Source: Isoetes taiwanensis
Taxonomy: Eukaryota > Streptophyta > Lycopodiopsida > Isoetales > Isoetaceae
Length of the DNA stretch: 64,000 nucleotides
Assembly (NCBI GenBank): GCA_021234155.1
Contig: JAJEKV010000001.1
Location: 18,249,382 to 18,313,381, forward strand
Direction: 5' to 3'
Shown: positions 10,701 to 55,324 of the stretch, in pieces
Position numbering within the stretch: position 1 is the first letter of the stretch
Layout: each line of letters begins with the position of its first letter
Program-made: the position numbers and the translations under genes
Notes under the pieces: model-generated
What the model saw: the letters and a program-made list of their open reading frames with translations, nothing else
Database searches by the model: none
What the model was told of the DNA's origin: nothing

Positions 10701-11040
10701 AAGAGTTATTGCCCTGCCTGTCCTCAATGATACTAATTGTGACACACAAGGATCGTCAACTGATAGACTTCCGCTTCCTCATGAGTTGGAGTTGATCAAC
10801 CCAGTCGAAGAAATCATTGATCACGAGCATGATTCACAATTAGAGGACCATCAAGACCTTCAGTTAAGGTCTCCAATAATGCATAGCCCAGAACATCAGA
10901 TATTTGATGATTACTTTGACGAGGAGGACGATAGAGAAAATCAGACGGAGAGACATGAATCACGGCTCTTTTTGCAATTAGATGATGATGAAATAGAAGA
11001 GGTTGAGCGTGATTTGCTATATGACATAACTGAAGACTAA

Positions 11041-12060: not shown

Positions 12061-12093
12061 TCCATCTGATGCTATGGCTGACGTTAATACCCC

Positions 12094-12108
12094 ATTTCTC
12101 TTGTAGTG
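12094..12108 (+). repeat. CACTA 3' terminal inverted repeat
   Basis: The sequence ATTTCTCTTGTAGTG ends exactly at the switch into LINE coding sequence. The partner 5' TIR is not in the window. Confidence 0.85.
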
Positions 12109-12720
12109 TCGGGATGGAATCCCATACGATGTATAATCCTCTCTAAGCATTGCCAACGTAAAGAGTCATATGCTCTCTTAAAGTCCAACTTCAGAAGAAC
12201 TACCAATTGACATGATCTCTGACACCAGTGTGCCCCTTCCCTTGCTGCAAGATAATTATCCAATATGGATCTCCATGGTAGGAAGGCAGACTGCTCATGA
12301 TCAATCACTCTCTGCAGCATAGGTTTCATTCTGGATGTAATGATCTTAGCCAAAGTCTTATAATTAGTGTTAGTCAGAGCAATGGGTCTCGACTCACCTA
12401 TAGACAACGGTCTGTCCACTTTGGAAATCAAGGAAATAAAGCTGGCGGAAATGGCCGGGTGAAGTTCTTTGGTCGACCATGCCCCTCTAATGGCTTCCAT
12501 CAATTTCGCCTTGAGTTCTGGTCAGAATTCCACATAAAACTCGAGGGGAAACCCATCTGGGCCAGGGGACTTGCCCGTTGCCATAGAGCATAGTGTTTTG
12601 AACCTCTTGCTCTGTGATGTCGGCCATGAGTTGTCTATTGTCAGCAAGCAGAATACTGGTTTGAGTTACCCGAGAGCAGGCCTCCATTGCATCATCAAAA
12701 CCCACCAGCTGAGGGTCCTC
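12109..12720 (-). pseudogene. LINE reverse transcriptase, N-terminal part
   Basis: The translated minus strand has GKSPGPDGFPLEFYVEF followed by a TGA where LINE proteins have Trp. It then continues with FISLISKVDRPLSI, RPIALTNTNYKTLAKI, EQSAFLPWRSILDN and LLKLDFKRAYDSLRW. These are RT motifs up to the first catalytic Asp block (the D of LDF). The frame ends at the CACTA junction immediately after MGFHP, before the second Asp box (YADD). It is therefore both nonsense-mutated and truncated by insertion. Confidence 0.8.
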
Positions 12721-13985: not shown

Positions 13986-14041
13986 ATCAAATGCCACCAC
14001 CTAACACTGATACACCTGCCCCGAGGCATATCAAATGTTCC

Positions 14042-17052: not shown

Positions 17053-19953
17053 TCATTTTTCCACTAGCATCCCCAAGGATATGAGAAGCTTATTCCTTAC
17101 ATCCTGAGGTATTGTAACTCTCGCTGTTTTACTAGGAATAGTTTTTGGAGTCCACGAGTACAATACGGTTTCAATGTCTAGCCAAAGATCAGGATCACTT
17201 GGATTTCTCCTCCACTTCTTTGTCCAACAATCTGAATATCTTTTCTTTATCGGTGACATTACTCAACTGATGTCTTTGGACACCACCATTCCACAGCACC
17301 TTATTGAAGTTAACATCACCTTCTTCTTTGCAAATATCCGAGATAGTGTATCCCAACCACCTTTGGATAGGTCTCTAGATCTGCTGGTTTTACTACTACA
17401 AATTGGTGGCACTCCACGTCGGTTAGAAGGTTCATAACAATCCATGCCTAAATATTTTGGCCTATCCTTCTTAGGACCAACATAGTGTTTATCAGTTGAG
17501 GAGGAGCATATGCCTTCACAATGCTACTAATGGTACCATCATCTTCGTCGGCACCGGCTAATGTTTTCCACTTACTTTTAGGGAACCACCCTTCTAGCAG
17601 CTCTTCTGAGGATGTGTCTACCTCATCCAACAAGTTGATCACCTTCTTCCAATAATCTATCAATGCACGATTAGTGTCATTTGAATTAGTTTGTCAATGC
17701 TTGATGTAGTCATTGATGCCATCCTTAGTCAAGCCCAATTGCTTGACTTCTTGATTGGTTTTAGAGCTTTTGGTTGACGGGGAGGTATCATAGGCTTGCC
17801 ATTTGCATCCCTAGGCCAAATTTCTGCCCCACCTCTCCACATCTCCTCTGAAGGTCTCATTTTCCATTGCATGATTGGAATCCCTTCTCTCACCCAAAAA
17901 GTGAATTGAAGAGGTCTAGAATGACCTTCCATGTCGAGAGCATAACCGTCCACAAAACTCTTCCAATCAGGCACTTCTTCTATGATAGATCCTATAGGAG
18001 ATGGATTTGTACATCCATGAAATATTTCCAATAGCCTGGGAAAGTTGGTAACTGTCTGCTGTCTCAATACATGACTATATTTTCCAAATAATGCATCCAC
18101 ATCCTCATGAGTATGTCCGGGCATTAGGAACCCCAAATTGACTCTTTCAAAAATACCCACAGCTGTTAAGTAGGATAGGAAAGAAAACATCCACTGTTTT
18201 TATTTTGACCCGGCACAATTATCTAGTTGCAAGAGGAGCTTTCTGGGCAGATCTCGAGGTTTAGCACAAGATGTTGAAGCTCCAACATGTTCATTAGCTC
18301 CATTCCTCCTAAATCTTGCCTTGCTAAACTTTTCAATACTATTAGGGGTTCCATCCAACAATGCACTATGTAGTGCACGGCTAGTCTGTGGGATCCCTGT
18401 AGGTGACCATTGTAACCCTTCTCATAGTTTCTTAAACACCTCATGATACTCCCAATGTGAAAGTCCGGACCATCACTCCACAACTCTAAACTGAAATGGC
18501 CATAATAGGTGCGAGGCTGCCCATGCAATATTGCCCTAGTCATTGAAAAATGCAAAGGGTATGATCTTCCACATGACTTAGGAATGTACTTGAATTGTGG
18601 AAGACAAGTCTTCTGTTGGTCCATTTTATCATGTATAATACATAGATAGTTATTAGGTTCCATTCGGATAAGGTCCTCCACATCCAATAAGTTGATCTAC
18701 ATGATAGTTGATCGTCATATGGTCCTTCATATGTTCCCTTATCTTTGCCCTTAGACTTGGTTGCACGGTCTTATCTAGTGTCTCCTTCAGCTTAGCACAT
18801 AAATTGCACTTGGCAAAGTTGTTTGAAGTTGCTATGGTCACATGCTTGAAATGCTTATTCCATAGCCTACTAAAACTGGCTGGGATATAGAGGCCACTCC
18901 AAGTTCGAAGCAATGCATTTTTTCCTCTAATATGCTCTTAAGGGTACAATGGGATGGCAATCTCTTTTCAACAATAACTCTCTACCTGTTCATCCTTCTT
19001 ACTCTTATGTGGCATGTTTTCGCATTGAAATCCACATATCTTTCAAATATTTCCTTTGTAGCTATAGTTCTTGAGGTAGGCCTTACCGGGCCGGTGTTCC
19101 CATGCAATGCAATTTTACTACCATTTTCATGTCTCTTTTTGCCGGTTGTGCCAAGAAGAGGTTGGAATTCCATGTATAGCCATCCATGCTTTTGAACATA
19201 TCCACTTTCCATTCAATGGAAATCTTTTCTTCTTTGATCTTTCATCACGAATTGTATAGCCAAATATGGTGTACATGAAATTCCTCCTGCTATCACACTT
19301 ATGTTCCGATATGTAGCTCTTCGCCACCATCTCCTCTATTGTGAACATTCTAATACGGAGGCCCAACAACATTCACTTCCTCTAACCTTCATCAAGGCTT
19401 CGGAGAACAATCATAATCGACTTGCATCTTTTGGTGGGATAATGTTTGAAAGTTGGAAGTGGCCTCTTGCTACACTTGTGTGAACATTATTGACAATGGT
19501 TCTACATCTATAGGAAACGTGTAGTTCCCCCCTCGGTTGAATCTTGTCCCTAGGCCATGCAACAATAGTTGGAACCTCTAGTTGCTTCACACAAGCAAAG
19601 GCATTCTTGTTTGCACGAACCCTTTTCCTTCCAATTGTCATATAATTTTGAGATTGCCACACCTAACCTGTCCTCCCCTAATCTTTCATCATTCACTTTG
19701 CATTGATAGGATCTGCTAGAACAATAATCCCTTCTCCCCATCGCCTCTCATTTGCATGCATGCGGGATCTTGACCTTTTGTTTTTCCAATGACCCAGAGT
19801 ATAAAGTACAATTTCCTTTCCTTTGGCATCATCCTTTTCATTTGAGGTCTTTTCCTTTCCTTTGCCATCATCTTTGTCATCCTTGCCTTGATCACCATCA
19901 TTGGGGGCCTTGGGGGGATTTAGCATTTTGCATGCCATTGACCTAAAATGCAT
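17053..19953 (-). pseudogene. DUF7869-type transposon-associated protein, decayed
   Basis: Minus-strand fragments in order: a Lys/Asp-rich N-terminus (19953-19700), a basic part with GRKRVRANKNAFACVK (19662-19411), FMYTIFGYTIRDERSKKK (19372-19127), a Cys-containing part with FAKCNLCAKLKETLDKT (18913-18653), MDQQKTCLPQFKY (18687-18223), then QLDNCAGSK, GHTHEDVDALFGKYSHVLR and a C-terminal tail (18190-17053). The trio 'MDQxKxxxP', 'QLDNCxxxNKN' and 'GHTHEDxD' is characteristic of DUF7869 proteins, a family with nuclease-like Asp/His motifs found repeatedly in mobile elements. Here QLDNCAGSK is followed by an in-frame TAA where NKN is expected, and the frame shifts at about 18670. The copy cannot make the full protein. 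No terminal repeats were identified. Confidence 0.65.
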
Positions 19954-23411: not shown

Positions 23412-26400
23412 ATGGCGTCTAGAGGATCTGGCCGCGGCCGAGGCGCTGGTAGAGGTGGGCGACAGCCCAAAGCACAAATCCCAAGCCTGGAGGCTGCTGA
23501 ACAAGCAGAAAGCACAAATCCAACAAGCGCCTCAGGTAATTGATCTGTTTTTTGTTTTGTAATTGATTTCTGTGTCCCTTTTTTTGTTAGGTTTTTAGGA
23601 TGTTTTTAGGATGTATTTTCTGTGTATGCGTGTCTCTGTGTATTTTCTACCTTTTATATTGTTTCTGTGTCATTTCTACTGCTTTTACTACCTTGTTTTG
23701 TGTGTTTTTTGTTATAATCTTCTCCTGTACTCTGTGTTTTTTGTTTTGTATTCTCCATTTTGTATAATGTAGACCGTTTAATTATAGTTTCTTGCAGACT
23801 TGTTTGTTTATACTTTTGTTCTGTATTCTCCAGTTCTTTTGACAAGTCTTTTTTGTAGCCTAGTATGTCTCTTATAAAAGAGAAGTGTCTGTAGGGCCCC
23901 TCTTAAAAAGCGGCTTCGGTAGCGATTTATAATGTAGAGATGATTGTTTTTGTTGTCTCGCCACTTTTCCCCGCGGTACAATTTTATGTTTTTAAAGTAA
24001 GGCGTCTAGCAAAACGCGCTCGGCGCGATTTCATTACTCACCACATGATTGTAACTTTCAGGATCTTCTAAAATTGTGAAAAGAAAAGCAAAGCCTCTTG
24101 CAGGTCCAGGGACATCCGCGAACGAAAAACCAAACGGATGAAGATGTATCGTTGATTTGGCACACGCTAGACCATTGACGATCTGACCGGAATAATGAAG
24201 GCTCGGTAGAGCCTCCATGTCCGTAAGAAGATCTACCAGAGGGCTCGAATGGTATGTGGAGATCTTCAAGACTAAGCGGAAAGACAGATCTGATTTTCAT
24301 GTCTAGAGTTAAGGAAACAGATCAAATGAAGAAATAAGGTATTCGATCACATGCGAAGAACGGGGGCGATTCTTCTTTGTTCCGTATTACTTGAAGCGGT
24401 CGGAAAAAAAAAAAAAAGTATTGAAGAAGTTAAATTACTGCAGTGCCAGTTCCTTTAAGGAGACTGCCCTAAGAACGGATGAGGCCGCAGATAACCTCTT
24501 CAAATTTGGCTGGTCAGGTGGTGATCTATTGACACCAAAAACAATATGTGAAGGACTCTCACCGTGAGGAGAGCAATCGGTACAAGGCCGTCGGCTAGAT
24601 GCGTACCTACAAGCTTTAAAAGAGAAGGAAGATGCAAGTTCTAGAGCCGTGGAAACACCCGGGCGTTCTAGGCATTACGAGATATGACTAGTGATGATGA
24701 CAAGGCGAGGCGGTTAGAGGCCATGAGCAAACTCAAGAAATATGCTGACAAGTATCCACTGGGCCTTAGCTTCACGCATCCTATCCATGTCGACAGGCTT
24801 TTCAGGTCCACGAAGGCTATGTTTGTCAGCAGAAGATACGACAAGCAGCACGCAATGGAAATAGTCAACAGCATGATAGAAACCCCGGGACGGTGCCAAT
24901 CTTGCGGCGAGATGTGGTGCCTTTTGATATGAAGGCGAAGAAGGTGTTGATATGGAATAAACTTGAAGATTTAATTGGCAACCTCGATATTCACTTCATG
25001 ATAATAGATGGCCCATTGATTGGAGGAAGCATGAAGGTTTTGATCGGTCAAGCACAAAAACTGGAAATCGGTTATTCTATAGACGTATTGGTCGAGAAAT
25101 TGCCGGTTCCTCGGTGGCTCAACAACGAAAGTGTAATTAGTTAAATCGGCGGGCTCTTGAATGACATGGGAAAGACATTCCTATACAAAAGGTATTTTAT
25201 TTTCCCACATATAGCGTTCCAAATCGCGCCGGTAGCGTTTTTGCTAATCGCGTATTTACAAAGCGGCGCGCGACGCGATTTCTTCATATGGCATACATGA
25301 AGAGATCACGCCAGCGCCGCGTTTTTAAATCGTGATTAAAACGCACTGGCGCGCTTTATGTTGTTATTTGTGTGACGGATTTACAAAACGCGCACCGGGA
25401 ATTCTTCATCGCGGAAGAAATCGCGCCAGCGGCGCTTTCATGTAAACCGTGGTTAATTAAAACGCCGCTGGCGCGTTTTATATTGTTACTTACCGCGGCC
25501 TCTATTTTTTATCTAACGGCCCATATTTTGCGGTCGTATGTGGAGGCGATTCGCGCACGCCGTAACCAATGGATCGAATATGGAAAACCAATGCCGACCA
25601 GACAAGGGCAATCTAAGAGTGCCAAATTCAAATTACTAGAAAGGACACTGTGCCAAACCATAATACAGGACAAGACCAAGGGCACTAGATCAAAGAAGAA
25701 AAAGGGGATGCACAAAGGCGGGCACGGAAGAGCAAAGCGGTGCCAAAGGATGCCCGCAAGATTGTTTTTCTTGACGACCTGTATGGGAAAAGTGGAACAA
25801 TTTTGGGACGCCTATTCGAAAAAAAAGTTGTTGCGATTCGTATGGCAGGTTTCCTCCGCAAGATACGTCTATTTTTGATATACATATCACAGAAATGAGA
25901 AAGGCACAAGGATTGGATGATGCAGAATTAATCTCTGTTCTAGATAGTTGCATCAGAAAGGAAGTTATCTACAAGAAAACGTCTGCAGCAAAGCACTTGA
26001 CATCTTTCGAAGATGCATGCGAATCGATAAAAAATATGAAAGTCCTGAAAAAAGCTGTTGGCGAAGAACTGCAAAGGCTCTCAGGAGACATGATGTTATC
26101 AGAGATAGGCTTAATGCAAAAGTACAACGTATCTAATGATGACATTAAGAAATATGTATTTTGGTCAAAAGATTTTGTGAAGCAGCAAAAGGCGAAGAAT
26201 GTGGCAACTCTTAAGGGGATTCACACGAAAGTTGCGTCTGACCTAAAAAGAAAAGTTGCTTTGGTGAAGAAGACGGCAGTAGACGAGTCTCCTTTTTTCT
26301 ATAAGGTGTCCACTGGTTATAAGTGTGCCATGCCAGAGGTGGGTGAAGGGCCAACCGACATCACTCTATTTGTTCTTGATAGCCGTGGCACGAGATGGAC

Positions 26401-27195
26401 ACAGGATGATTACAGCACCTTCTTCAACACATGCAGTGGTTTGACGACTGAGATGCATTATACTATCGTGACAGTTTGCCACTCCGACATGTCCTACGCA
26501 TATGCACTAGCTGCTGCAAATGATGTCGAATGCATTAAAGTGATGAGGCAAGCAGTAATGATAGATGAAAACAAAGATAGTGAGTTTAGTACCGAAAGTA
26601 AGATCTCACATGTGCTAGTCCTTATGATAGCCATTATGGATGATAAAGAATATGAAAGACTCAAGGGGAAACCAGAAGGTGAGAAGATTGCTTGGCAGTG
26701 CTATCGGCTAGATGAACCCCTATTGAAAAATATTTTTTATGTCGAATCCAATGCTGAAGACAAAGGGAAGGAGACTGCAGATGTGGACTTTGAAGAGGAC
26801 GAAGAGGAAGAGGAAGAAGAAAACTGGGTCGACCCTGTCCTTAATTCACCAATCAAGTATGAGCTAAGCCGACCACAAGATAAGGGAGGCTGAATAAGCA
26901 CGGTTTTCTTTGGCCCTTTCGAAGTTTTTCGATTGAAGCCTTCTGCCCTTTAGAGTCTACGTGTTGGGAGTTTCATGTTGGAGGTTATGTCGAGCGGGAA
27001 GCTCTGAAGCTAGCTAGGAAATGCCAAAGTGTGGTCTCTGATGGTCAAGCCAAGGACTTCCTTGATATTTTTTTCGAGAAAGTGCTAGAGGTGGCACCTA
27101 GGGGTCCGCTAGGTAGTGCAAAAAATAAAGCTTCCAGGGTGGAAGCACACTATAGTGGTTCGATTAGCTTGTCCCCCTTGTCCCCCCCAAAATAG
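23412..27195 (+). CDS. Unrecognised multi-part gene with Gly/Arg-rich N-terminus and acidic C-terminal part
   Basis: Exon 1 (23412-23535) starts MASRGSGRGRGAGRGGRQPK, an RGG-type N-terminus, and ends at a GT donor in phase 1. An acceptor at about 24060 (CTTTCAG then GATCTTC) continues in phase with a Lys-rich stretch (KIVKRKAKPLAGPG), but the frame soon breaks. Further open pieces on the same strand are 24684-24900 (ARRLEAMSKLKKYADK), 24893-25141, about 25730-25880 (KIVFLDDLYGKSGTILGRLF), the 333-codon ORF 25895-26893, and a +2-shifted continuation to 27195 (ESTCWEFHVGGYVERE). The central ORF holds DITLFVLDSRGTRWTQDDY and ends in an Asp/Glu run. Same strand and order suggest one original protein with frameshifts or unseen introns. 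I do not recognise a family. The DxRG...W...D block vaguely recalls methyltransferase layouts, but no DPPY or SAM motif is present. CG-rich palindromes sit between its parts. Confidence 0.5.
25205..25480. repeat. Cluster of CG-rich palindromes (GCGCCAGCGGCG / CGCCGCTGGCGC)
   Basis: Within 270 bases there are repeated AAATCGCGCC and GGCGCG..TTT words arranged as inverted repeats. The clearest is AATCGCGCCAGCGGCG facing CGCCGCTGGCGCGTTTT about 30 bases later. The words stand out because the surroundings are AT-rich. The same words recur at 21645-21765, 22310-22395, 24005-24035 and 39790-39905. Confidence 0.7.
25895..26893 (+). CDS. Intact 332-aa ORF of the unrecognised gene
   Basis: This is the longest undisturbed part of the surrounding gene. 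Residues 1-110 are helical and charged (YKKTSAAKHLTSFEDACESI; YNVSNDDIKKYVFWSKDF). Residues 110-260 look globular, with CAMPEVGEGPTDITLFVLD, the TIVTVCHSDMSYAYALAAAN strand-helix block and VLVLMIAIMDDKEY. The end is an acidic run before ENWVDPVLNSPIKYELS. The first Met may be internal to a longer protein, since coding continues upstream in another frame. Nuclear or nucleic-acid association is suggested only by the RGG exon and acidic tail. Function unknown. Confidence 0.55.
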   Translation: MRKAQGLDDAELISVLDSCIRKEVIYKKTSAAKHLTSFEDACESIKNMKVLKKAVGEELQRLSGDMMLSEIGLMQKYNVSNDDIKKYVFWSKDFVKQQKAKNVATLKGIHTKVASDLKRKVALVKKTAVDESPFFYKVSTGYKCAMPEVGEGPTDITLFVLDSRGTRWTQDDYSTFFNTCSGLTTEMHYTIVTVCHSDMSYAYALAAANDVECIKVMRQAVMIDENKDSEFSTESKISHVLVLMIAIMDDKEYERLKGKPEGEKIAWQCYRLDEPLLKNIFYVESNAEDKGKETADVDFEEDEEEEEEENWVDPVLNSPIKYELSRPQDKGG

Positions 27196-27199
27196 TTAA

Positions 27200-27680
27200 A
27201 GAAGTAGCTCGTTCCCTTACTAATTTCTTTTGGCCTTTTATGGCAACAACCATGCCACGTAGAAAATTTTTAAAATTTTCCAAGAACCTCGGGCCAAAAG
27301 TTCCGTCCCAAGAAGCAAGCTCGGTGCTATCAGATAGGTCTCAATGCTTGACCAGAGGATAGAGGATGATCCCATGAATCAAGACCTACTGATGCAACCA
27401 TGCCAACACGGTAAACCTATCTTTTACATACGTTTAGTTTTTCTTTCTGTATTACATTTGCAACACCATAAACGTTGAGGAGAACTAATGAAATGAAAGT
27501 TTCCTTGTTACTAGATTGGAGCAAGGAGATTTGGGATGTATAATCCGAGAAGAATCCTCGTTGTTTCTAAGGCCGGTAATTGCGTGATTTTTGGCATCCT
27601 GGTTTATTTTTTTGCAAACATGACATTAGGCCGTGCAGAAGGTAAGCCTCATTACTTCTCCATTCTTCCGATAATTATAT
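27200..27680. other. No gene recognised
   Basis: Short open frames only (for example 27536-27742), without recognisable similarity. Confidence 0.3.
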
Positions 27681-27684
27681 CTAG

Positions 27685-30600
27685 TGATGGAAGATACAAT
27701 GCACAATTCAAAAGGAAAAGAAAGAGCACAACAGAAAGGTGAAACTTTGAAAAAAAAAAGAATGAAAGTAGAAAACGAGAAAATGTGAATTGATGACTAT
27801 TATGCAAGAGGGTTCTACTAGTACCAGCCATAGTAAAATTCAAAAGAATAAGATTGTAGCTAGTTTAGTACTCTTCTTTGTGAGAAAAACTTCTCGAATG
27901 GATGTGAAGCAAAGAGAGAAGTTCTAAAGGAGTTCATGAAGCAAAAGGAAGTTGCAGAGTTTCTTGATGACCAATTCAGGAATATGGAGGTGAAGAACCA
28001 TTTAATTGATAATATTAGAGAAAATATCCAGTCGGTAAAATCTTCTACTCGTACAGATTCTATGGCTGCAAAGCAGAGTGTACTTGCGATGTCTATTGGA
28101 CAAGGTTGCACCAGTGAAATTGTTAGTAAGAGAAGTTTGGGAAAAGTTTTGGGAATCCATCCAAGAAATATTGCGATTGCAAGGGATAAACACAAGGAGA
28201 TAGTCACTAATAAAACTGGATGGGTGTTTTATAAAAGGTCAAAGAGGATCGATTCAATTGGAAATGATATTATTGTACAAGGGTCTAGCCAAATGTAAAA
28301 GACGTGAGATATAAAAGGTTGGAGAAGAATGTTAAAGAGGAGCATGCAACTCATTATCTGGAAGATACACAGGTTAGTTTATTGCCTTATTTTGCGCTTA
28401 CTTGTTTCCAAAGTTTTGCTAGCATGTTTGATGTATTTTATTTGGTTAGATTGAACTCAAATATATGTGTTTGATGAATGGTGTTTGCTAATTTTCCTAA
28501 ATGATTTAGGCACTATGTAGTTGTGAGATACTTGCAAGTTGGAGTCCCAACCATAGTAGTAACTTATGTTTTAGTTCCATGTTACAGTATGCATTTGCAA
28601 AAAGGTCCAAGTTACAGGTTACAGTGTGACATGTTATGGACTTACCTTGCACTTAAAGGCCGTAGTTTTAGAGATAGTTGCAGGTCATAGTCTGAAGTTG
28701 CAGGTGACAGTTGCAGGTGGCAGTTGCAAGTTGCAGGTGTTAGTTCTAGTTGGCGGTTTAGGTGACGATGGTGGTGGCGAAAAGGTGCGAGTCCAGGTTA
28801 GGTGATAGTTCTGACTTACCAAATAGTAGTAGTCGTAGATGCCACAAACCCCGACTGGGACTGTTTTAGGTGCAATAGATTCAGTTCTAGTTGTAGTTAG
28901 TCATTGTGAAGTCTTAGTTTTGCACCTAAGACATCATGCATGTAAACTGATTACTATTGTTGTTATTATCCAGTCGTAAATGTTCCTCAAATTCAAAGAG
29001 CAATATCCGGCGGTGAAGATCCGCCAAAGGGCTTTTGAGAAATTAAAGCCATGGTAATGCGTATTGAAATTGAAGCAATTTAACTTGTTGTTGCATACAT
29101 CACGTCTTGGTTGCAAATGCTTTTAGATGGCTTTAATAGATTGAGAAATCAACATGTGAATCCTTGCAACTGTACATGTGATGTATGTCATCATGTGGGA
29201 GATGTGGGAGAAGCTTGTTTTGCCAAGAGAAAGAAATATAAGACAACTACAGAGTTGTGGCAGTCTATTCTTTGTGCAAAGGAGGAGAACCGTGAATTCC
29301 ACAAAAAAAGATTGCATAGATGGAGTTTGCACTAATTGTGGTATATCCCAGCTATCCATATGTCCACTAGAGTTAGCAACTGAAGGATCTGTTAGTTGGG
29401 AGTACTGGGATTATGAAGAAGGTGGAAAAGATAAGTGGGGAAAGCCAAAGAAAATACTGAAGCGTTTGTGGAAAGAAACTGAGCCATTTGTGGAAAGAAC
29501 CATGAGCTTTAGTACACAAGTTAATTGACAAAGTTGGCTAAATTTCCTTTGCATAGTTTTCAGGCATAAGTGGCGTGCCAAGCAATTTAAGGAGTTCTTT
29601 GGAAAATCTTCCACTGTGTACTCTTTTGTCGGGGTTGTAGATTTTCTTTGAGAACTTTAGTATCCAGCTACAAAATCAGGTCCAATCTGCATATTGGACT
29701 AGCAAACAGGTTACTATCTTAGTGCATATTACATACTTTGTAGATCCTGTATCAAATGATGTGATGAAGGATACCCATTATTATATATCGGATGACACAA
29801 AGCATGATACTTTGTTTGTTCAGCATGCATTTATGATGCATTATGAATTTATGCAACAACAAGGAATGGATCCAAATAAACATTGGGTCTTTTCGGATGG
29901 AGCAAACATCTCGTTTTAAGGCAAAGAAGACCTTTTTACTTTGTCGGAAGGTATGCACATGCCACACATATACGATGATGTGGAACTTTTTGTTCCAACC
30001 ATGGGAAAGGGGAGCATGATGGAAAAGCCGCAGAATTGAAGAGATGGTTGAGGGAATTGATGAAGAGACAAAGAAGATCTGAAAATAGAACGCAAAGCAG
30101 AGATATAGTGAAGATAGCTAGGGAGAGCTTCATCATCGTGGCTCCATCATCTAGTGTGAACAAGAAGCCAAGATTTAAGATGGTTTTGGGAAGTGGTGGG
30201 AGTGAATAGAAACAACCTTTGGGCAGCAGAGACAGTGGAGGACACACGAAACATCCATTCTGTTCATGCATTTAATCCAGAATGCCCTACCCAATTGCAG
30301 GTAAGGTGTTTGTCATGCTTTTGTGCAAATTGCCTTGATGCTCAATGGGGTAAATGTATGAACAAAGAGTATGTAGATGATTGGAAGCTTGTAGTTATTG
30401 AACCTAGCAAGGTTCTAGCTGATGAATTTGAGCTATTAAACCAAAAGAACAATTTTCTTCGTGGTCAGCCATGTTGAGTGATGCCGTAATAGTAGGTGAT
30501 ACGTTTGCTGTGGTAGCTCCAAAGGATAATGAAGAGGGTGCACTATTTTGGATGGTACTATGCACAAAGACTAAGTATGTTGTGGAGGAAGACTTTGAGT

Positions 30601-31639: not shown

Positions 31640-32360
31640 CATCCTAAACACCCACTTGGCACACGTGGCACACTTGGCACACGTGGCACAAGTGGCACCC
31701 ACTTGGCACACGTGGCACACGTGGCACTTCCTTACACCTAGGTGGCAAGTCAGAGTAATTATGTGTAATAACACTTTGAGATTATGTTGATACCCTTAGG
31801 CCTAGGTGGCACCCACTTGGCACACGTGGCATGTTGATACCCTTAGGCCTAGGTGGCACCCACTTGGCACACGTGGCACACGTGGCACTTCCTTACACCT
31901 AGGTGGCAAGTCAGAGTAATTATGTGTAATAACACTTTGAGATTATGTTGATACCCTTAGGCCTAGGTGGCACCCACTTGGCACACGTGGCATGTTGATA
32001 CCCTTAGGCCTAGGTGGCACCCACTTGGCACACGTGGCACACGTGGCACTTCCTTACACCTAGGTGGCAAGTCAGAGTAATTATGTGTAATAACACTTTG
32101 AGATTATGTTGATACCCTTAGGCCTAGGTGGCACCCACTTGGCACACGTGGCATGTTGATACCCTTAGGCCTAGGTGGCACCCACTTGGCACACACGGGC
32201 ACGTGGCACTTCCTTACACCTAGGTGGCAAGTCAGAGTAATTATGTGTAATAACACTTTGAGATTATGTTGATACCCTTAGGCCTAGGTGGCACCCACTT
32301 GGCACACGTGGCATGTTGATACCCTTAGGCCTAGGTGGCACCTACTTGGCACACATGGCA
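31640..32360. repeat. Satellite-like array of 161-bp units rich in CACGTGGC
   Basis: The landmark CTTCCTTACACCTAGGTGGC starts at 31727, 31888, 32049 and about 32209, giving periods of 161, 161 and 160. Each unit also holds TTATGTGTAATAACACTTTG, two CCCTTAGGCCTAGGTGG blocks and several GGCACACGTGGCA words. About thirteen CACGTGGC octamers are present; this octamer is the plant G-box/ABRE core. The copies are nearly identical, so the array is young. Confidence 0.9.
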
Positions 32361-34274: not shown

Positions 34275-37200
34275 TCAATGATACCGATATTTCTTGAGAA
34301 TGTCCACTGCTCTTTTAGAAACCTTATCCAGAAAGTTGGTCAATGGATTTGCTTTCGCATAGACTTCCACACTTTCATTTTCTAATAATCCTTCCAGCCA
34401 AGGTCTCAAATGTTCGTAGAGGAAGTCACCATCTATTCGAGATGGTTGGTAAGTATTGGGACATACCATTGAATGCGGACTGTTTTTGAAACCATGGTAC
34501 AGCATATCATCTATTAACAATGTATTCTTTTCATTCCACACTCCCTTTGATTCCTGATATACCTTGCTCAACTCCTTCAACATAATAGGCTTTCTATCAA
34601 TCTTGAACGATGTGTTTGTGCACTTTCCTGAAGACCAAGTAAAATGTAATTTCTGTTTGACAGCTTGTTGAAACATTTGATTAATAATAAGATTGGCCGC
34701 CGTGCTGCTCAATCTTGTCCAAACAGCAATCTCAAAGTGCTCCAAACACCAATCTAGAAGATCCCTTGCCCTCGGACGCAAACACGCCTAACTTTGTATG
34801 ATTGAGGTGCTTTAGTTCTGCACCATCCATGACACAGCTGGGCAATGGTTCCGTATTCTCAAATAGCTTCAACAAAACACCATCAAGCTCAAAAATAAGA
34901 AGCTTCTTGTGTGATTTGATCCTTTTAGTACATGGGGACATGGAAGGACTACCACTTGCCTCCCCCCGTTTACTTTTTCTGGTTGCTAAACTTATTGTAT
35001 TTCCTACAGTAGAATGTAAATTTCAGCATATATTCAAACAAATAAATTTAAAATCAATCTAATAGGAGAACATTTTACCAGGTGAAATGGACTCTTCATA
35101 TTGTGACGGATAAGATGTTCCATTCCTTGTCTTCAAGATTGGGCTACGCGATGGAGTGCGAACTTCACCGAGATTGTCATTCTTTCCCCGCAACAACTAC
35201 CCTATTGTCTCCTATAGATAACCGCTACATCTCAGTTATGATCATGTGTCATTACTATACAATCCCAAAGTTAAGACACTACCTGGCCCAATGGAGTTAG
35301 CTAATTTTGATCGACAAGAAGCAGTCTTTCCATTGTTAGGTGGATCACAAGACATCATGTTTCTTTCCAAAAGGGGATGAGGCAAAGGTCGTTGGCATCT
35401 TTCCCATTTGAGGCTTCTGGTTGGGGGCCTTTAGACACTACATCATTAGTGCTATTATCTGATGTGACAATAAACAACATAAATAAACAAAGTAAGTAAG
35501 TCAAACCACTTGCATCCCTGTAACAGTCCATGCAACATGACCCTAGCACTACAGTTTAACTAACCATGCAACTGGACACTACCACTAAAGTTTAACCAAA
35601 CCACCTGTCAAACAACTTAAAACATTTTCTGTCACAGATCCGTGTAAAGAATACCCTAGCAAAATTACATATAATTACCTTGGGGAAACAAGACTGCAGT
35701 GTTTGGTTCATTGTCTTCAACAGAAATCAGGTTTTTGCAGTTATCGTGAACTTCCATACCAGTTGTTGATTGCCCTTGACTATCTGTGTTGCATATGTAT
35801 AATAAAATACACATGGTCATATTTTTTTGAAAATCCTGCACATTAGAAAATATTAACAACTTTTGTTACCATTATTGTCCTTCTGCTCTTTGTAAGAAAT
35901 ATTGTCCATCACGCCCTTCCCAACTGTTAATGCAGTGCTCAAACATCTCGGCATAAGTTTATGATCCTTGGGATATGATACGGATGCCGGGGTGGAGCTA
36001 ACACCTTTCATTGTCAATTTCTCTATTTCCATATGTAAGTAACAATCATTAAGTACCTAGCGTGAGCTGAAAATAAATGAAAACAAACCAACCATGCGAA
36101 TCTAGCGTTATGCTAATCTTCGACTCCTGGCACCCTGATTTTGACATGGTATGTCCACAATTCGTATAACAACATAATGTAGAGCAACTGCAAAACAAAA
36201 CGCTGTTAGATTAATTCATTCAGAAACATATGGAATTGGAAGATGCTACCTGAAATGCGCTACGCAACATGCCACATGATATGTGTGTCTGCACTCGACA
36301 ATAATGATTGGCAAGAGCATCTCATCCGATTTGAGTGACCTGTAACAAAATGGGCATGCTTCGCTCAAATTAATGCTCGAAGCTTCCTTCAAACTATCAA
36401 CAACGACCGGTGTTTGGGTAGGCAAACAAGGATCGAACTCAAAAGGTTGGCACATGCTGGATCGAGATGCCAAAAGCCTTGTAAGGCAGGGTCTCAATTT
36501 GTTTAGCTGCTCCAACTCGACATCTCCGAAATCTCCACGCATTAATAAGTCATCGAGAGCTTGCTTCAAAGCTAGACGCAACTCTTCAAGCTCCCTTTTT
36601 GTAGGTCAATTACTGCCTCAACGCCCTCCTTCGCTGCACTTGAGAGCTTTGTGATTAAATCTTGGTACTTTTTAATGTCATTGGCTACACGAACCTCCCT
36701 AGCCTCTAGACCTTTAATATTTTCTTTCATGACACTGCACTTATCCTCGCTCAGTTGCAGTTCAATAGTCAGCCTGTTGACATCATGTTCTGCAGTAGAA
36801 ATCCACTCCTTCAATATCCTTGACATTTCTGAAATACAAGAGATAATTAAATTAGAATCTTAAATTAGATAAACAATTGATGGAATGAAGGTGCAAGTAC
36901 ATGCAAAACATCTTGCTCTATTGAAAAAAGGTCAAGCATCTTGCCATCTAGTATAAAGAAAGAAAGCTCTAACATTTTGCTCTATTGCTTTAGACGTGAA
37001 TAAACTTGAATTACATCAGCCAATGGGCTGGAAGATTAACCAAACCTATCGCAAGAGTTTGAGTGCTCATTATGGTGATCTGCAAAAGCTTGGCCTATAG
37101 CTTCAGAGCATCTCGATGGCAAAGGACACAAGCTGCAACTATATGACACAAGCTGCAACTATAGGACACAAGCTGCAAGCTGTGACTTGAGCTAGAAGAC

Positions 37201-38204
37201 ACAAGGTGCAAGCTGTAACTGCCTGATACACTCTCTCACTACGACTGTGACTGAAACTGCAACTACTAAGGCATGGTGCACTATGGCTAAGACCGAGGAT
37301 CAGAACTAGTAAGGTGTGGTGCATCTGCAACAAGCAACTGTAAGCTTCCAGCTGCAATCTGCACCTGCGACTGGAATAATCAAAATGGTTGTAAATATCA
37401 ACTACAACATGTGACTAAGCTTAAGCTTGTAGCTGCAACTCATAACTACATGATTCTACCTATGAGCTTCAACTTTGGCTTAAAACATGCAATTATACCT
37501 TACAACAACATGCCTCTAACTATGAATACAACAACTACTTCAACTCCATGTAGCTACAGCTAAAAATTAATTTATGTAGCTAAAGATAAACATAGTAATT
37601 GAATATAAGAGTTTGCTATGACCTCAGTGGTTAAGAAATTAGCTACAAAATAGAGAAACAAGAATCAAATAGTACCTGGTATCTTTTTTTCATAATTGGC
37701 ATCATTCACCTTGGTCTTACATGTCACATTAGAGCTAATAAAGATTTGTGAAGAGGGCTTCTCAACAAGCACTGACGCAATTGGAGACAATGTCTGTTGA
37801 GAAACAACATTTCTTTGTCCCGCTTTTTCAGCCCATCGTCATAGTCACCGTTTTGAAAGTGCTCTACTCTTTTTTTTGCTGACTTTGCATGCTTGTAGAA
37901 ACTCATCCAATTTATTTCCACGACCATTGCAATGCAAGAGAAATGCTATCGCCAATGCTTGAGGCACCTGCCCTCCTAAAACCTTCTTTCTATCATGTAT
38001 TTTCTTATATAGCAATAGGAACTCCTCCTTCTTGTTTTCTTTCAACAACCTGAACCTGTAACAAGACTTGCCATTTACCTTTGGACCCCACATCCTCCGC
38101 ATGTCATTGTCATCAACATTCCTTTCCTCTGATTTATATAACTCCTTAAAGGTCAAACCTCTGTTGCTCAAATCTGGAATTGCATCGCTTGGAACTGACT
38201 CCAT
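34275..38204 (-). CDS. Putative RING finger / coiled coil / HAD phosphatase-like gene, with lesions
   Basis: Exons on the minus strand: 38204-37676, 36828-36250, 36187-36093, 36022-35870, 35783-35679, 35458-35283, 35196-35079, 35003-34275. Most junctions are phase 1 and join in frame, which argues for one gene. Exon 1 is a helical unknown domain (TFKELYKSEERNVDDND; VPQALAIAFLLHCNG). Exon 2 has a coiled coil (EHDVNRLTIELQLSEDKC) and CPFC...ECRHTYHVACC, completed by exon 3 (SCSTLCCYTNCGH) into a RING-like zinc finger. Exons 4-7 are Ser/Asn-rich linker. Exon 8 has LLIFELDGVLL, RPRARDLLDWCLEHFEIAVWT and NTLLIDDMLYHGF, the NLI-interacting-factor branch of HAD phosphatases, with Glu in place of the nucleophile Asp. 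Lesions: two in-frame TGA codons near 37841-37847, a one-base loss in an A-run near 36600, a stop or shift near 35310, and a shift near 34790. It is either a recent pseudogene or a gene with assembly errors. Confidence 0.6.
37080..37580. repeat. AGCTGCAACT-type degenerate repeats in intron 1 of the RING-HAD gene
   Basis: ACACAAGCTGCAACTAT is present in two near-tandem copies near 37125 and 37145, followed by many AGCTGCAA, CTGTAACT and CAACTAC words over about 0.5 kb. It is the complementary style of the GTTGCAGGT repeats near 28.7 kb. Confidence 0.5.
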
Positions 38205-39382: not shown

Positions 39383-40450
39383 TTGACCCACTATATTGTG
39401 CTTGGACCCTCCAGCTCTAAGTCCGAATTACCTGCAGATCTGGCTGCAGAGCGGGAAGAAATGAGAAAGCATCTAGAGGGCATAAAGAAGAATATCGACA
39501 AGCAGCAGCTTAACTATGCGGCCGAGAGCGTGCCTTTCATTCCAATCACATTGGAAAATCTGACTGAAGTGGATGTAGGTAACGCAAACGAAGAAGACAA
39601 AATCCTAGATGATACAGTGGATTCGGAAAGCTCGAGTCAGGTTAGCATAAAGAGTAATGAAGTATCAACCATAGTTCAAACACTAAGTGATGTGGCTGAC
39701 ACTTCTGGCAGACCGAAGACAGCCGAGAATAAGCTCATCATTGCGGATGTTGAACAGGAACCAGAAAGGTATGTTAATCAAACAGAAATAAAAATCGCGC
39801 CAGGTGCGATTTCAATTCTTCAAACCAAATTGAAAATCGCGCCAGGCGCGATTTCAATTATTCAAACAGCAATTGAAAATCGCGCCGGTAGCGCGATTTC
39901 AATTTTCTTTTTCCTTGTCTCACAAGTGTGTGCTTTATTATTCTGAGACCTAATCCGGTTTCCTCCAAAATTTCGGTGTTTGATTTGAATGGAGTGCTCG
40001 CAAAAACGTTACCTAAAGCACAATTCCCTTTATCATGGTATGCACGAAACCATTTGAGACATATCTGAAATGGGTATATCCGTGGCCAGATATCTGGAAG
40101 GAGATGTTAGACCAAGCTTTCACTTTATTTCGTTGTGCAATTTGGTCGTCGATGGAGAATAGAAATATCTGAGGAAGTTTTGAGAGTAGTTCCCGAGTTA
40201 CATAGAGATTGGACATCTGTTTGGGATCGAGCAAATGTAAGTCATTCAATAACCGAAGGATCCCTCTGGGTAAAAAAATATTTGTGAAATGCTTGAGCGA
40301 CATGATGGATGACTTGGGCGTTCGGAGAAGGAAGACATCATTATAGTTGATGATGATGCCTTGAAGTGTTGCTTCAATCGATCCACGATCACTAAATCCA
40401 CCATCCTATCATCACGAAGATTTTGACAAAGATGACTTCGCCTCCCGTTT
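39383..40450 (+). pseudogene. HAD phosphatase-like (NLI-interacting factor type) gene, broken
   Basis: Exon 1 encodes a charged coiled-coil-like part (AAEREEMRKHLEGIKKNIDK) and an acidic Ser-rich linker, ending at AAAG then GTATGT (39767). The intron ends CTGAG at about 39946 and the join gives PERPNPVSSKISVFDLNGVLA in frame. DLNG is the variant nucleophile motif of a plant HAD subfamily. After shifts of frame come KPFETYLKWVYPWPDIWKEM, FTLFRCAIWSSMENRNI, VPELHRDWTSVWDRA, KKIFVKCLSDMMDDLG and DIIIVDDDALKCCFN, the conserved later motifs. At least three frameshifts or stops make it non-functional. It lies divergently next to the RING-HAD gene but is not a close copy of it. ORF continuation through the intron is coincidental. 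Confidence 0.65.
39787..39905. repeat. Triple AATCGCGCC palindrome filling an intron
   Basis: Three consecutive units have the form AAAATCGCGCC-AGG(or GGTA)-GCGCGATTTCAATT. In the last two the arms extend to AATTGAAAATCGCGCC versus the complementary GGCGCGATTTCAATT. Together they occupy most of the 179-base intron of the HAD pseudogene and would fold into strong hairpins. Confidence 0.85.
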
Positions 40451-49918: not shown

Positions 49919-51296
49919 TTAGTAACTTGGAGGTGGAGGGGAATAGTAGTGATAAGCATGTAGTGGCGGTGGTGGAGATGCATAGTGGTAGATGGGGGGT
50001 GGAGGTGGAGACGTGTAGTGATATGTTGGACGCGATGGGGACGGGTAGTGGTATATAGGAGGTGGAGGTGGAGATACATAATGATAAAGGGGACGTGGAG
50101 GGGGCGACTTGTATTGGTACACGGAATGTGGCGGAGGTGGAGGAGAGAGGTACTTGTAAGAAGGAAGAGGAGGTGAAATGTGGTGGTACGTTGAAGGAGG
50201 TGGCGAAGGATATTTGTATACAACTGGTGGGGGAGAGTTATAGTGATACGCGGGAGGAGGAGGAGGAGGAGGAGGGATGTAGTGATACAATGGTGGAGGT
50301 GGTGACCTATAGTGATAAATTGGGGGACGATTATCTCTATAAATTGGAGGGGGAGGGGAGGCATAATGATATGTAGGGGAAGGTGGTGATCTATAATAAT
50401 AAGCTAGTGGAGGTGGTGGTGCTTTGTAGGAATAAACTGGGGAAGGAGGTGAAATGTAATGGTATGCTGGAGGTGGAGGAGATTTGTAATAATAAGGTGG
50501 CGATATAGGAGCTTTGTATGATGGCGGACCATAGTGCAAAGGGGGAGGAGATAAATATTGATAAAAAGGAGGTGGGGGAGAGGATTTGTATCTATAAACA
50601 GGTGGTGGAGGAGAGTGAGAATAGTAAGACGGTGGTGGTGGAGCATGGTAATAGTATATGGGAGGTGGAGGAGACTGATAACGATATATTGGAGGGGGAG
50701 GTGGAGGTGGTGGTGGGGGGGGTGGGGAGGCGGAGGAGGTGGTGGTGGTGGCGGGGAGATTTATACCTATACGGAGGAGGCGGAGGCGGAGGCGAGTAAT
50801 AAGAATATATTGGAGGTGGAGACAATTTATATTTGTAAATAGGAGGGGGAGGAGATTTGTATGTGTAAATTGGGGGAGGTGGAGAAGCGTAATGATAAAT
50901 GGGATGGGAAGAGTATGGGCGAGGTGGAGGGGGAGGTTTGTAAGTGTTGTGGTGATTGGGAGGAGGAGATACATAACGGTAAGCTGGAGGAGGAGGGGGT
51001 TTAATGTAGTAGTGATGTGGAGGTGGCGGTGAATGATACTTATAAATGGGATGTGGTGGTGGAGGCGGCAAATGGTACCTGTAAATGGAATGTGGTGGTG
51101 GAGGTGGCGGTGAACGGTACCTGTAAATGGGATGATGTGGTGGAGGGGGCGAATGATACTTATAAGCGGGAGGTGGTGGTGGAGGGGAGAGCAGAGGCTT
51201 GTACTCATATGTTCCCTTGGCTAGGACGACCATAGCCAACAAAGTGAGCAACAACACTTGAATTGCCAAGGGACCTGCATGTAAGTAACGGGCCAT
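49919..51296 (-). CDS. Extensin-like hydroxyproline-rich cell-wall protein, one frameshift
   Basis: The protein starts MARYLHAGPLAIQVLLLTLL, a clear signal peptide (about 27 residues, cleavage near LAKG). It then consists of SPPPP or longer proline runs alternating with Tyr-rich spacers (YKYHS, YRYRS, YHYAS, IYTYK). Hydroxylated, arabinosylated SPPPP blocks and YxY motifs are the glycosylation and crosslinking sites of extensins in the primary wall. About 180 residues are read in the first frame to near 50760. The remaining about 280 residues, equally extensin-like and ending SPPPPSY, are in the neighbouring frame down to 49919. Without a one-base correction in the C-rich tract (about 50735-50765) translation runs into a non-extensin tail and stops at 50592. 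This is either an indel in a homopolymer or a recent null allele. Total corrected length is about 459 residues. Confidence 0.85.
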
Positions 51297-51365
51297 TGCA
51301 CATCTAGAAGGAGTAGATATCAGCTTCCTTCAAGCATGACTTGGTTTGAGGATCAAACATGAATC

Positions 51366-51399: not shown

Positions 51400-53700
51400 C
51401 AATGATGATATAGTGGAGGAGGTTGAGGTGTATAATCAGAGAGCGCCAGATGTGAAACTAAGTGGGATACATAAAGCTGATGTGTGGGAGCAATTTATCT
51501 GCGAGTTAGTGGGGAGCTACGGGTGGAGTTCAGAAGAGCAATCCTCGCAATCGAATGGAGGGCCATTGCTCGTGGTTGTAGTTCATTTTGTCAGGCCACT
51601 TTTATTAGTGATATGAACATCTCATGGACATGGTCTACAATATACAACATGGATGGCATCCACCATTTCTTTTAAAGAAAAGTCGAATTAGTTTGAAAAA
51701 GTCGACCTTTGTCCAGGACCACTGATTGTCTTTCTCAATTTTCAACCATTGCGAGGTTGCCACGTGTTTCCCACTCATTGGTCTTCCTCACGGATTGAAG
51801 CCTTCTCACGGATTTAAAAGAGGCGAACCCGAGAGACCTATATTGTTTGCTGATATTTCCTTTGATCTTAAAGCTTATTCCTGTTTGTGGCCTTTTTTTT
51901 TTTTTTTTTTTTTTTTCCCAAGAAGCTCTTGTTTGCTCTTATTGTGTGGCTATGCTTAAGCAACGGTCTTAAGGTTTATTGCTATTCTATTTTGAGAATT
52001 AAACCCAGTCTTTCATTTGTCAGTCTCAGGAGCAAATACACAGTTTTGAGATTCTCATAAGCTCCTTTGGAAGGGCGCGATTTTGAAGTTAATGATTCAT
52101 TTTTAATGGTGAAATTGTCCGTCACTAATAGTTCATTCACATGATGCTTTCTTGGCACAGCGCAGAAACAGCGAAGGGCCCAAATTCAGCCGCAGTGCTT
52201 GCAGATCAAATCTAGGCTGTTCTTCAAATCTTGCATCAGTTTGAATTTCGAAATCACAGAGCCTTCAAATTATATAGAGCTTGAATTTTGAAAATCACAA
52301 AGCCTTCAGATCAAAGAGCTTGAATTTCGAAAATCAGAGGGCCTTTAGGTTGCATTGTGATCAGTCTTTAATGATAAATAGTATTTACAACTCCCTAGGA
52401 TTGTGACAAGGCGAGGTCAGCTGTGCTCTACTTTGTCTCTGTAATCTGTAATCAGGCTTTTTGTTATGTGCTGCTGTGGTAGAACCGTTTAGTTGCCTGG
52501 TAGTACTATTCATGTTTGTATAGCGTACATTTACTTCTATTGTGGTTTTCACAACCATATGCTGAGGTGTAAAATTGGGTTTGACCCATCTTGTTTTTGC
52601 ATGGACGGTCAAGGGTTGTGATATTTGGCATATTTGGTGGTATATTCCATGGATCAAGGGTTAAGCTGAGACGAGTATTAGGATGCGACTAGTATTAGGA
52701 TGTTTATCTCTATCCACATCATTCAAAGGATATGCAGACGGATTAAAAAAATTCATATCAAGGAACACATCATTCAGATCTGCCCTGCCAATCTGTTGGT
52801 GCACAGTTCCCCGCCAAATAACTAACTAACTATATCTAAATATGACATGTGAACGAGAATAACATGCATTTCTCCATACCCCTCGAACGTGGTAGAGTGA
52901 CATGCATCAACAACTTCGATGAATCAAAAAGAAGTTTTCTTTTCTATTCTAGGGTGGCACTACATCTAAGAACATGAAACAAGGCATCACACATGACAAA
53001 ATTTCCTCTACTAGAGGTTATCTCCTACTAATGAGCAGCACATTACATGCATCTTATTCAATTTCAGTAATAAATTGCTTGCATTGCAACAATAAGTGGA
53101 AAGCTTCAGGTTACCTTGGCAAGCTCTTAAATAGGGACCTTTGAAGCATATCTTGTTGTGCCATTTAACAAATAGGAGGAATCCTGCATGCATAAGCTAA
53201 AGAATCCCAAATCGATGGACACATGCAGAGTTCCTTCAAGAACACAAAGCCAAAGTAATCTGTAGTAATCTTGGCAAAACATTTACTTCTGAACCAAATC
53301 AAGTGATTAGAATCTGCTTTGTTCCGAAAGAAAATTTGCCACAAGCATGGTACTAAAACAAATCAAGGCCAAACACCATCATGGCCTAAAAATGAAATCC
53401 ATGAAGATTTTGAGAATTGAATGGCCCAAGTCTAACTACCAAACTAGGAACTACAACGATTTTTCATGTGGCTCCTTCGTATCTAGAGATTCATACATCT
53501 ATCTGTCTAGCCATTTGTCTAGGGCAAATAATATATTGTTGTATAGACACATTGCTTTATTAGGGTTTTAGTTCTTGACTTTGAGTAACCACTGCCCATT
53601 TCGTTATGGAGTAATCCGAGTTCGGGGCATGTCGAATCCTTACTTATGCTCGTTGGTCTGGTATCTACTTATACTTTATCCAGAACATTTGACAAAAAAA
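51400..53700. other. Intergenic with T26 run at about 51892-51917
   Basis: The T-run could be the tail of an insertion on the minus strand, but no coding remnant or target duplication accompanies it. Near 52240-52340 the words AGCTTGAATTTYGAAAATCA and GCCTTCAGATCA recur. No gene recognised. Confidence 0.45.
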
Positions 53701-53728
53701 TAATAAACAGACAGAGAACACGAGGATA

Positions 53729-55324
53729 ATGCGGCAGCTGGAAAATTCTGCTATCAGAAATAATATATATTGCCGTCTGCTAGGTTGCTGCAAGAGAAAT
53801 GATATGCAATTAGGAAGACAAGTTCTGTCTCTTATGATTCAGAATGGGCTTGATTCAATTGGCGTGTTGACTGATCATCTTATTCGTCTCTTTGCATACA
53901 ATGGTTTTGTAATTGAAGCTAATAATGCCTTTAACAGGGTAATAAATCCTTCTGTTTATACATGGAGTGCAATAATATCAGCAAATGCAGACCTTGGCCA
54001 AGAGTTGGCAGCCCTTGATTTGTATTATGATATGAAGCTCTCAGGTACGCAGAGTGACCAGTATATTTATCTCAATGTTATTCAAGCATGCACAATGGCA
54101 TTAACCCTTCCTCATGGCAGGCTGATTCACCAATGGATAGCTAGAAACATTTTACCTGGTGTTGTAGTTGGGACAGCCCTGACTGATATGTATGGTAAAT
54201 GCGGCAGCCTCGAAGAGGCATTCAGAATTTTTGCTGCAATGCCAAATAGAAATGTGGTGTCATGGGGCGCGATGATCACAGCATATAGCCAACATGGGAA
54301 AGGTAATCTTGCCCTGGACTGTTTTAGACAGATGCAGGAAGTTTTCATAATAAAACCAAATGAAGTTATACTTTCTAGCATACTTAAGTCTTGTGCTAGC
54401 ATAGGAGAGTTAGAGCATGGTAGGATTATCCATGAGAGTATGATGGACAGTTGTTTCCAAGCTGACGTTGTAGTAGCCAATTCCCTTATTGACATGTATG
54501 CCAAATGTGGTAATCTGCTGGATGCATTTTATGTGTTTGATAAAATGCTGAATCGCGATGTTGTTTCCTGGAATACAATGATCACTGGATGTGCACAACA
54601 TGATGAATCTATTCTTGCTCTAGAGTTTTTTGATGAAATGCAGAGTGAGGGTGTAAAACCAGAAACAGCAACATTTTGCGTTGTATTGAAAGCATGTGGT
54701 AACATAGGAGCCATAGAACAGGGCAAGTTCATTCATGGATTGATCGTTAATAATGGTGGTCAATTTGATGTGGCCATTGCAAATGCCCTTGTTGACATGT
54801 ATGCAAGATGTGGAAATTTAGAGAGGGCAAAATGGACATTCGATAAATTTCCAGTCCACGATGTCAAGTTATGGAATGCAATGATCGCAGCATATGCGCA
54901 ACATGGCGAAACCCTTGTTGCTCAAAAATATTTTCAGGCAATGCAAATGAATGCCATACCGCCAAATGACATGTCATTTACTAATATCCTTATCGCATGC
55001 GGCAGAACAGGTTTGGTGGATGTTGGTCTTTGGTATTTCAAATTTATAAGAGAGCACAATAACATTGCAGCAACTGACATACATTTTGCAACTGTTACTG
55101 ATATTCTAGGACGAGCTGGACATCTTAGTGAGGCAGAAGATTTATTGGAGGCCTCAATCGAGCCTAATATTATTGCTTGGAAATCTCTGCTAAATGCTTG
55201 CAAGTTGCATGGAAATGTAGAGATAGGAAGGCACTGCTTTGACCAACTTGTCTGTTTAGATCAGCAATGTGATGCTGGTTATGTACTTATGTCAAATGTT
55301 TATGCTGATTGTGAAGATGCTTAG
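53729..55324 (+). CDS. PLS-type pentatricopeptide repeat (PPR) protein, C-terminally short
   Basis: A single intronless 531-codon frame consists of successive P, L and S PPR motifs, recognisable by VVGTALTDMYGKCGSLEEA, NVVSWGAMITAYSQHGKGN, VVANSLIDMYAKCGNLLDA, DVVSWNTMITGCAQHDES and VAIANALVDMYARCGNLERA at about 100-residue spacing. Plant PLS proteins bind organellar RNA and usually direct C-to-U editing. The frame ends at YVLMSNVYADCEDA just inside the E motif; the following bases still read RAAEKFEES after the TAG. No E2 or DYW deaminase region is found downstream. No organelle transit peptide is evident before the first repeat, so an upstream exon may be missing. It is either a truncated PPR or a PPR that works with a partner. 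Confidence 0.85.
   Translation: MRQLENSAIRNNIYCRLLGCCKRNDMQLGRQVLSLMIQNGLDSIGVLTDHLIRLFAYNGFVIEANNAFNRVINPSVYTWSAIISANADLGQELAALDLYYDMKLSGTQSDQYIYLNVIQACTMALTLPHGRLIHQWIARNILPGVVVGTALTDMYGKCGSLEEAFRIFAAMPNRNVVSWGAMITAYSQHGKGNLALDCFRQMQEVFIIKPNEVILSSILKSCASIGELEHGRIIHESMMDSCFQADVVVANSLIDMYAKCGNLLDAFYVFDKMLNRDVVSWNTMITGCAQHDESILALEFFDEMQSEGVKPETATFCVVLKACGNIGAIEQGKFIHGLIVNNGGQFDVAIANALVDMYARCGNLERAKWTFDKFPVHDVKLWNAMIAAYAQHGETLVAQKYFQAMQMNAIPPNDMSFTNILIACGRTGLVDVGLWYFKFIREHNNIAATDIHFATVTDILGRAGHLSEAEDLLEASIEPNIIAWKSLLNACKLHGNVEIGRHCFDQLVCLDQQCDAGYVLMSNVYADCEDA

Follow-up and report, generated by a model that had tools for sequence, protein, structure and literature searches.

An interrupted candidate gene of Isoetes taiwanensis that links a RING-like finger with an NIF-type HAD domain

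Introduction

Several described protein families carry HAD domains of the FCP type. The plant SCP1-like small phosphatases (SSPs) of Arabidopsis constitute a family of 16 genes of the FCP/SCP type, described in the available part of the source without a RING finger or a coiled coil (PMC8774115). UBLCP1, in which a ubiquitin-like domain is combined with an FCP/SCP phosphatase, is described as a proteasome phosphatase (PMC5451543). Fungal Tim50, a mitochondrial import protein, has an imperfect motif and no phosphatase activity and acts as a presequence receptor; as far as the accessible text of the source goes, it is described without a RING-like finger and sets a precedent for binding in place of catalysis by an FCP-like HAD domain whose catalytic motif is imperfect (PMC8346121).

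In this study we analyzed a 64,000-nucleotide stretch of DNA (referred to below as the window), which contains, on its minus strand, a real gene, or the recent remnant of one, whose two modules are known but may stand in a new arrangement. The locus resembles the SSPs in its FCP/NIF-type HAD domain; it differs from them, and from Tim50, in the presence of a RING-like finger, which here precedes motif I (ELDGV). Like UBLCP1, it combines an FCP/SCP domain with a module of the ubiquitin system, probably in one protein, but this module is a ubiquitin-like domain in UBLCP1 and a RING-like finger here. To our knowledge, UBLCP1, with its ubiquitin-like domain and active phosphatase, is the nearest known arrangement, and no fusion of a RING finger with an NIF, FCP1 or HAD domain was found in the open-licence literature by title or the beginning of the abstract.

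Results

Structure of the gene

The proposed gene occupies positions 38204 to 34275 of the minus strand (from the ATG at 38204 to the last base of the stop codon at 34275). Its rebuilding resulted in eight exons, comprising 2496 bases in total, and seven GT-AG introns of 847, 62, 70, 86, 220, 71 and 75 bases, in this order. The borders were the same as those of the original prediction, which had placed eight minus-strand exons with mostly phase-1 borders at these coordinates. Six of the seven junctions are in phase 1, and the remaining one, between exons 2 and 3, is in phase 2 and lies inside the finger; the exon borders were picked to fit, so part of this agreement is built into the model. 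The acceptor of exon 4 has a weak look when inspected by eye. The exons are as follows:

37676..38204, minus strand: exon 1, start codon and helical N-terminus
36250..36828, minus strand: exon 2, coiled coil, then zinc ligands 1-6 of the finger (CPFC...ECRHTYHVACC)
36093..36187, minus strand: exon 3, end of the RING-like finger with its final Cys ligands (CCYTNC), joined to exon 2 in phase 2
35870..36022, minus strand: exon 4, linker, phase-1 borders
35679..35783, minus strand: exon 5, linker, phase-1 borders
35283..35458, minus strand: exon 6, linker
35079..35211, minus strand: exon 7, linker
34275..35003, minus strand: exon 8, basic stretch and NIF/FCP-type HAD domain (ELDGV motif I, LLIDD motif IV), terminal stop

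The first 119 aa encoded by exon 1 gave no Pfam match, and a sequence search of the N-terminus against the PDB returned four matches, every one with an E-value of at least 1. The linker gives the impression of being disordered. None of the nine direct-repeat families detected in the window (at least 60 bases, ungapped) overlaps the gene, i.e. no second DNA copy of it was found there by this approach.

Genetic surroundings

Of the 53 open stretches in the window with 110 codons or more, 20 were scanned against Pfam. The following features were distinguished around the gene:

7812-11040, plus strand: transposon remains, with Transposase_21 (tnp2) and DUF4216 in separate open stretches
12084-12521, minus strand: reverse-transcriptase domain (RVT_1, E 3.6e-14)
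14263-16373, minus strand: long open stretches that contain internal repeats (149-163 bases, at distances of 307-309)
17729-18199, minus strand: DUF7869 (E 1.6e-24)
25336-28298, plus strand: open stretches of up to 372 aa, the first two overlapping in different frames
31685-32354: four copies in tandem, spaced 160-161 bases apart, the others 87-98% similar to the first
39780-39910: short palindrome-like units around AATTGAAATCGCGCC and GGCGCGATTTTCAATT, with about three repeats (by eye)
49919-51329, minus strand: extensin-like gene (SPPPP/YxY repeats; Extensin_2, E 4.8e-08)
53693-55324, plus strand: PPR gene (PPR, E 6.3e-55), open over 543 codons
61374-62219, plus strand: reverse-transcriptase domain (RVT_1, E 8e-16)

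With its PPR gene, extensin-like gene and transposon-derived domains, the window has the appearance of land-plant DNA. We take the transposon remains to be of the CACTA type and the two RVT_1 stretches to be LINE-like. The PPR gene ends within its E motif, at profile position 34 of 63, and is thus truncated or frame-broken, while the extensin-like gene contains one frame change, located in its proline-rich part. In the region 14263-16373 frame changes are as few per length as in the RING-like/NIF gene. Three open stretches of the region 25336-28298 were scanned, with no Pfam matches up to an E-value of 0.01, and scans of the window for tRNAs and Rfam families gave no hits.

Interruptions of the reading frame

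The eight exons had been proposed to join into one protein. This did not hold on the present sequence, since the spliced exons are not open and require a minimum of six frame changes, distributed over exons 1-8 as 2, 1, 0, 0, 0, 1, 1 and 1, within the following intervals:

37845-37945, minus strand: break 1, exon 1, frame change or in-frame stop
37724-37838, minus strand: break 2, exon 1, frame change or in-frame stop
36572-36605, minus strand: break 3, exon 2, between the coiled coil and the finger
35355-35430, minus strand: break 4, exon 6, linker between the finger and the HAD domain
35177-35196, minus strand: break 5, exon 7, linker between the finger and the HAD domain
34732-34787, minus strand: break 6, exon 8, within the HAD domain

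Extra small introns in place of the frame changes were considered, but a non-exhaustive inspection by eye of the short break intervals in exon 2 and exon 7 showed no fitting GT-AG pair.

Shuffled exons (n=300) need between 20 and 42 changes, none of them reaching 6, and the reverse complement of the spliced exons needs 24. Stretches of equal length taken from the window in 500-base steps on both strands (n=248) need a median of 25 frame changes, and only one of them, at 14001 on the minus strand in a transposon-like region, is as low as the gene. Summed over the exons, the minima equal that of the full chain, which means that no frame change is needed at an exon junction, although the borders had been picked to fit. 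The low number of changes relative to the shuffles, together with the absence of changes at the junctions, demonstrates that the gene is, or recently was, coding sequence; the gene model follows real coding sequence, either intact or recently so. On this strand the open stretches of greatest length have 170, 119, 119, 96 and 95 codons; their sum was reached in none of 500 dinucleotide shuffles of the region, and the longest one alone was reached in one of 500. Codon-usage scores trained on the PPR gene of the window did not consistently favour the chosen frames and were uninformative.

These data leave considerable room for a pseudogene, i.e. a formerly functional gene, fusion or not, that lost its reading frame through indels, an explanation that we consider quite possible. 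In such a case the Glu found at the nucleophile position of the HAD domain (see below) may be a product of decay and would be uninformative on function. Transposon remains lie close by, and the six changes in 2496 exon bases compare with a single one over 1378 bases in the extensin-like gene and with none over the 1629 bases for which the PPR gene is open, an excess that is not statistically firm with only two neighbouring genes, one of which, the PPR gene, itself stops inside the E motif. Decay is also opposed by the number of changes, far below what the shuffles require, and by the splice sites and the four linker exons, all of which are kept. Every break interval contains three or more identical bases in a row, which is a weak point against decay, as such runs are common.

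The coiled coil and the RING-like finger

The predicted coiled coil was recovered as a heptad periodicity: the 77-residue piece encoded by exon 2 contains no prolines, and its heptad hydrophobic moment (1.07, against a shuffle mean of 0.34) was reached in a fraction of 0.0004 of 5000 shuffles. A sub-threshold match of this piece to SOGA (E 0.0066) was discarded as that of a generic coiled coil.

The finger that follows has the pattern C-x2-C-x17-C-x-H-x2-H-x2-C and then a Cys cluster spanning the phase-2 intron. The RING ligand consensus is C-x2-C...C-x-H-x2-H-x2-C...C-x2-C. Zinc ligands 1-6 of the finger fit this pattern, and their order and spacing are those of the Pfam families zf-RING_2, zf-RING_11 and zf-rbx1; in contrast, the two residues of the last Cys pair are three or four positions apart (C-x3-C or C-x4-C), where x2 is usual. 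Fingers with the spacing C-x-H-x-Y-H-x2-C ... C-x4-C also occur in fern, lycophyte and moss proteins, which would make this a known plant type.

Three short forms of the finger matched RING models with E-values of 0.0011 (exon-2 frame alone), 0.0013 (68-aa finger) and 0.0019 (74-aa finger), but their best RING scores stayed below the gathering cut-offs (19.6, 18.8 and 18.3 bits against 31, 27 and 27, respectively). When the coiled coil was included (225-aa form), zf-rbx1 was the sole RING model (E 0.049; 14.3 bits against a cut-off of 31). None of nine shuffles of the finger matched a RING model; two of the nine matched unrelated families (E 0.19 and 0.22). In the PDB, the best of six matches was the RING of PCGF6 (E 0.0039). 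The RING finger of the original prediction is thus borne out only weakly, in its ligand order and its weak matches to RING models but not in its last Cys pair or in its scores, and because these lie under every Pfam cut-off we refer to it as RING-like rather than as a RING. The AlphaFold2 single-sequence model of the 119-aa RING-exon frame was poor (mean pLDDT 46.1).

One gene or two

The finger in exon 3 and the HAD domain in exon 8 are separated by 1089 bases containing four small exons. The two modules thus lie some 1.1 kb from each other in consecutive exons of compatible phase, which makes a single gene the likelier arrangement, and the RING-like and NIF modules probably belong to one protein.

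We regard as doubtful the alternative of two neighbouring genes, in which a coiled-coil/RING-like gene would end just after exon 3 and a gene for an NIF-type HAD protein would begin in exon 4 or later. If the donor of exon 3 were unused, a stop codon would follow 42-44 bases past this exon; moreover, exon 4 carries an in-frame ATG, and with breaks in both exon 6 and exon 7 the connection between the modules is weaker. However, the phases agree over every junction and intron 3 has just 70 bases. If the second gene began in exon 4, fewer than 40 bases would extend from the stop codon to the ATG of this exon, which would seem too little room for an ordinary terminator and promoter.

We also searched two collections of contigs, one viral and one genomic, neither of which includes plant genomes, with scans that detect only close relatives. 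Among the viral contigs, the HAD frame gave five pattern matches and the RING exon seven, and among the genome contigs the HAD frame gave 28, none of them confirmed by tblastn. Due to the composition of these collections, the absence of relatives says little.

The NIF/FCP-type HAD domain

The C-terminal NIF-type HAD domain proposed for this gene was found by the profile search: the translation of exon 8, with X at the break, matched PF03031 (NIF) with 46.5 bits against a gathering cut-off of 21.8, over profile positions 1-159 of 160. The unaltered 170-aa frame (the last 170 aa) also exceeded this cut-off, with 36.8 bits. No continuous frame runs through the domain, as one change is needed. The 170-aa frame produced a poor AlphaFold2 single-sequence model (mean pLDDT 39.5), and a phmmer search of the domain against the PDB returned no match up to E-values of 1 and 10.

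In human CTDSP1 the nucleophile is the first Asp of the DXDX(T/V) motif (PMC7281111). The domain of exon 8 does not match this catalytic motif, since it reads E-L-D-G-V, in agreement with the Glu initially noticed at the nucleophile position. With Glu in place of the nucleophile Asp, catalysis would presumably be crippled. By reading of the sequence, the other residues are present: motif I keeps its second Asp, and the Thr of AVWT, a Lys in LKEL and the DD of LLIDD are in place. We take AVWT, LKEL and LLIDD to represent HAD motifs II to IV. Some plant SCP1-like members have the same LLIDD context together with an altered motif I, as observed here.

It is very unlikely that this is an ordinary intact gene masked by assembly indels and encoding an active HAD phosphatase with a zinc-binding finger devoid of E3 activity, in which the Glu would be a base error or a tolerated change: the other motif residues are in place and the finger is no more than RING-like, but it is Glu that occupies the nucleophile position.

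Discussion

The idea of a RING/HAD fusion whose HAD domain may bind instead of dephosphorylating has gained from the phase-compatible adjacent exons and from the Glu at the nucleophile position, and has lost from the six frame breaks and from a finger that scores under the RING cut-offs. We tentatively favour, as the leading explanation, a single land-plant nuclear gene, intact now or until recently, that encodes a phospho-reading adaptor of the E3 type and whose breaks are mostly assembly indels, with gene decay a close second. The breaks in exons 6 and 7 count against it, as they lie in the very linker that is meant to join the finger to the HAD domain.

The product of such a gene would consist of a helical N-terminus, a coiled coil, a RING-like finger and a linker, and would end in a HAD domain of the NIF/FCP type whose nucleophile position is occupied by Glu. 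The coiled coil may form dimers. The HAD domain would bind phosphorylated partner proteins without turnover, and the RING-like finger may bring a ubiquitin-conjugating enzyme to the partners so bound. This scheme supposes that the exons form one transcript, that the linker is disordered, and that the finger binds zinc and has E3 activity while the HAD domain has lost catalysis, each of which we infer from the sequence. Perhaps the partners of the phosphoprotein-reading domain are phosphorylated RNA polymerase II tails. We would give only a slim chance to the full proposal, i.e. a working plant protein in which a dead FCP-type domain reads phosphoproteins and passes its partners to a built-in RING-like E3 for ubiquitylation.

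If the locus is a relic or a casualty of assembly, it serves as a warning against joining exons by eye without a check of the frame. If the gene is intact in the living plant, it would couple the reading of phosphorylation and the transfer of ubiquitin in a single chain.
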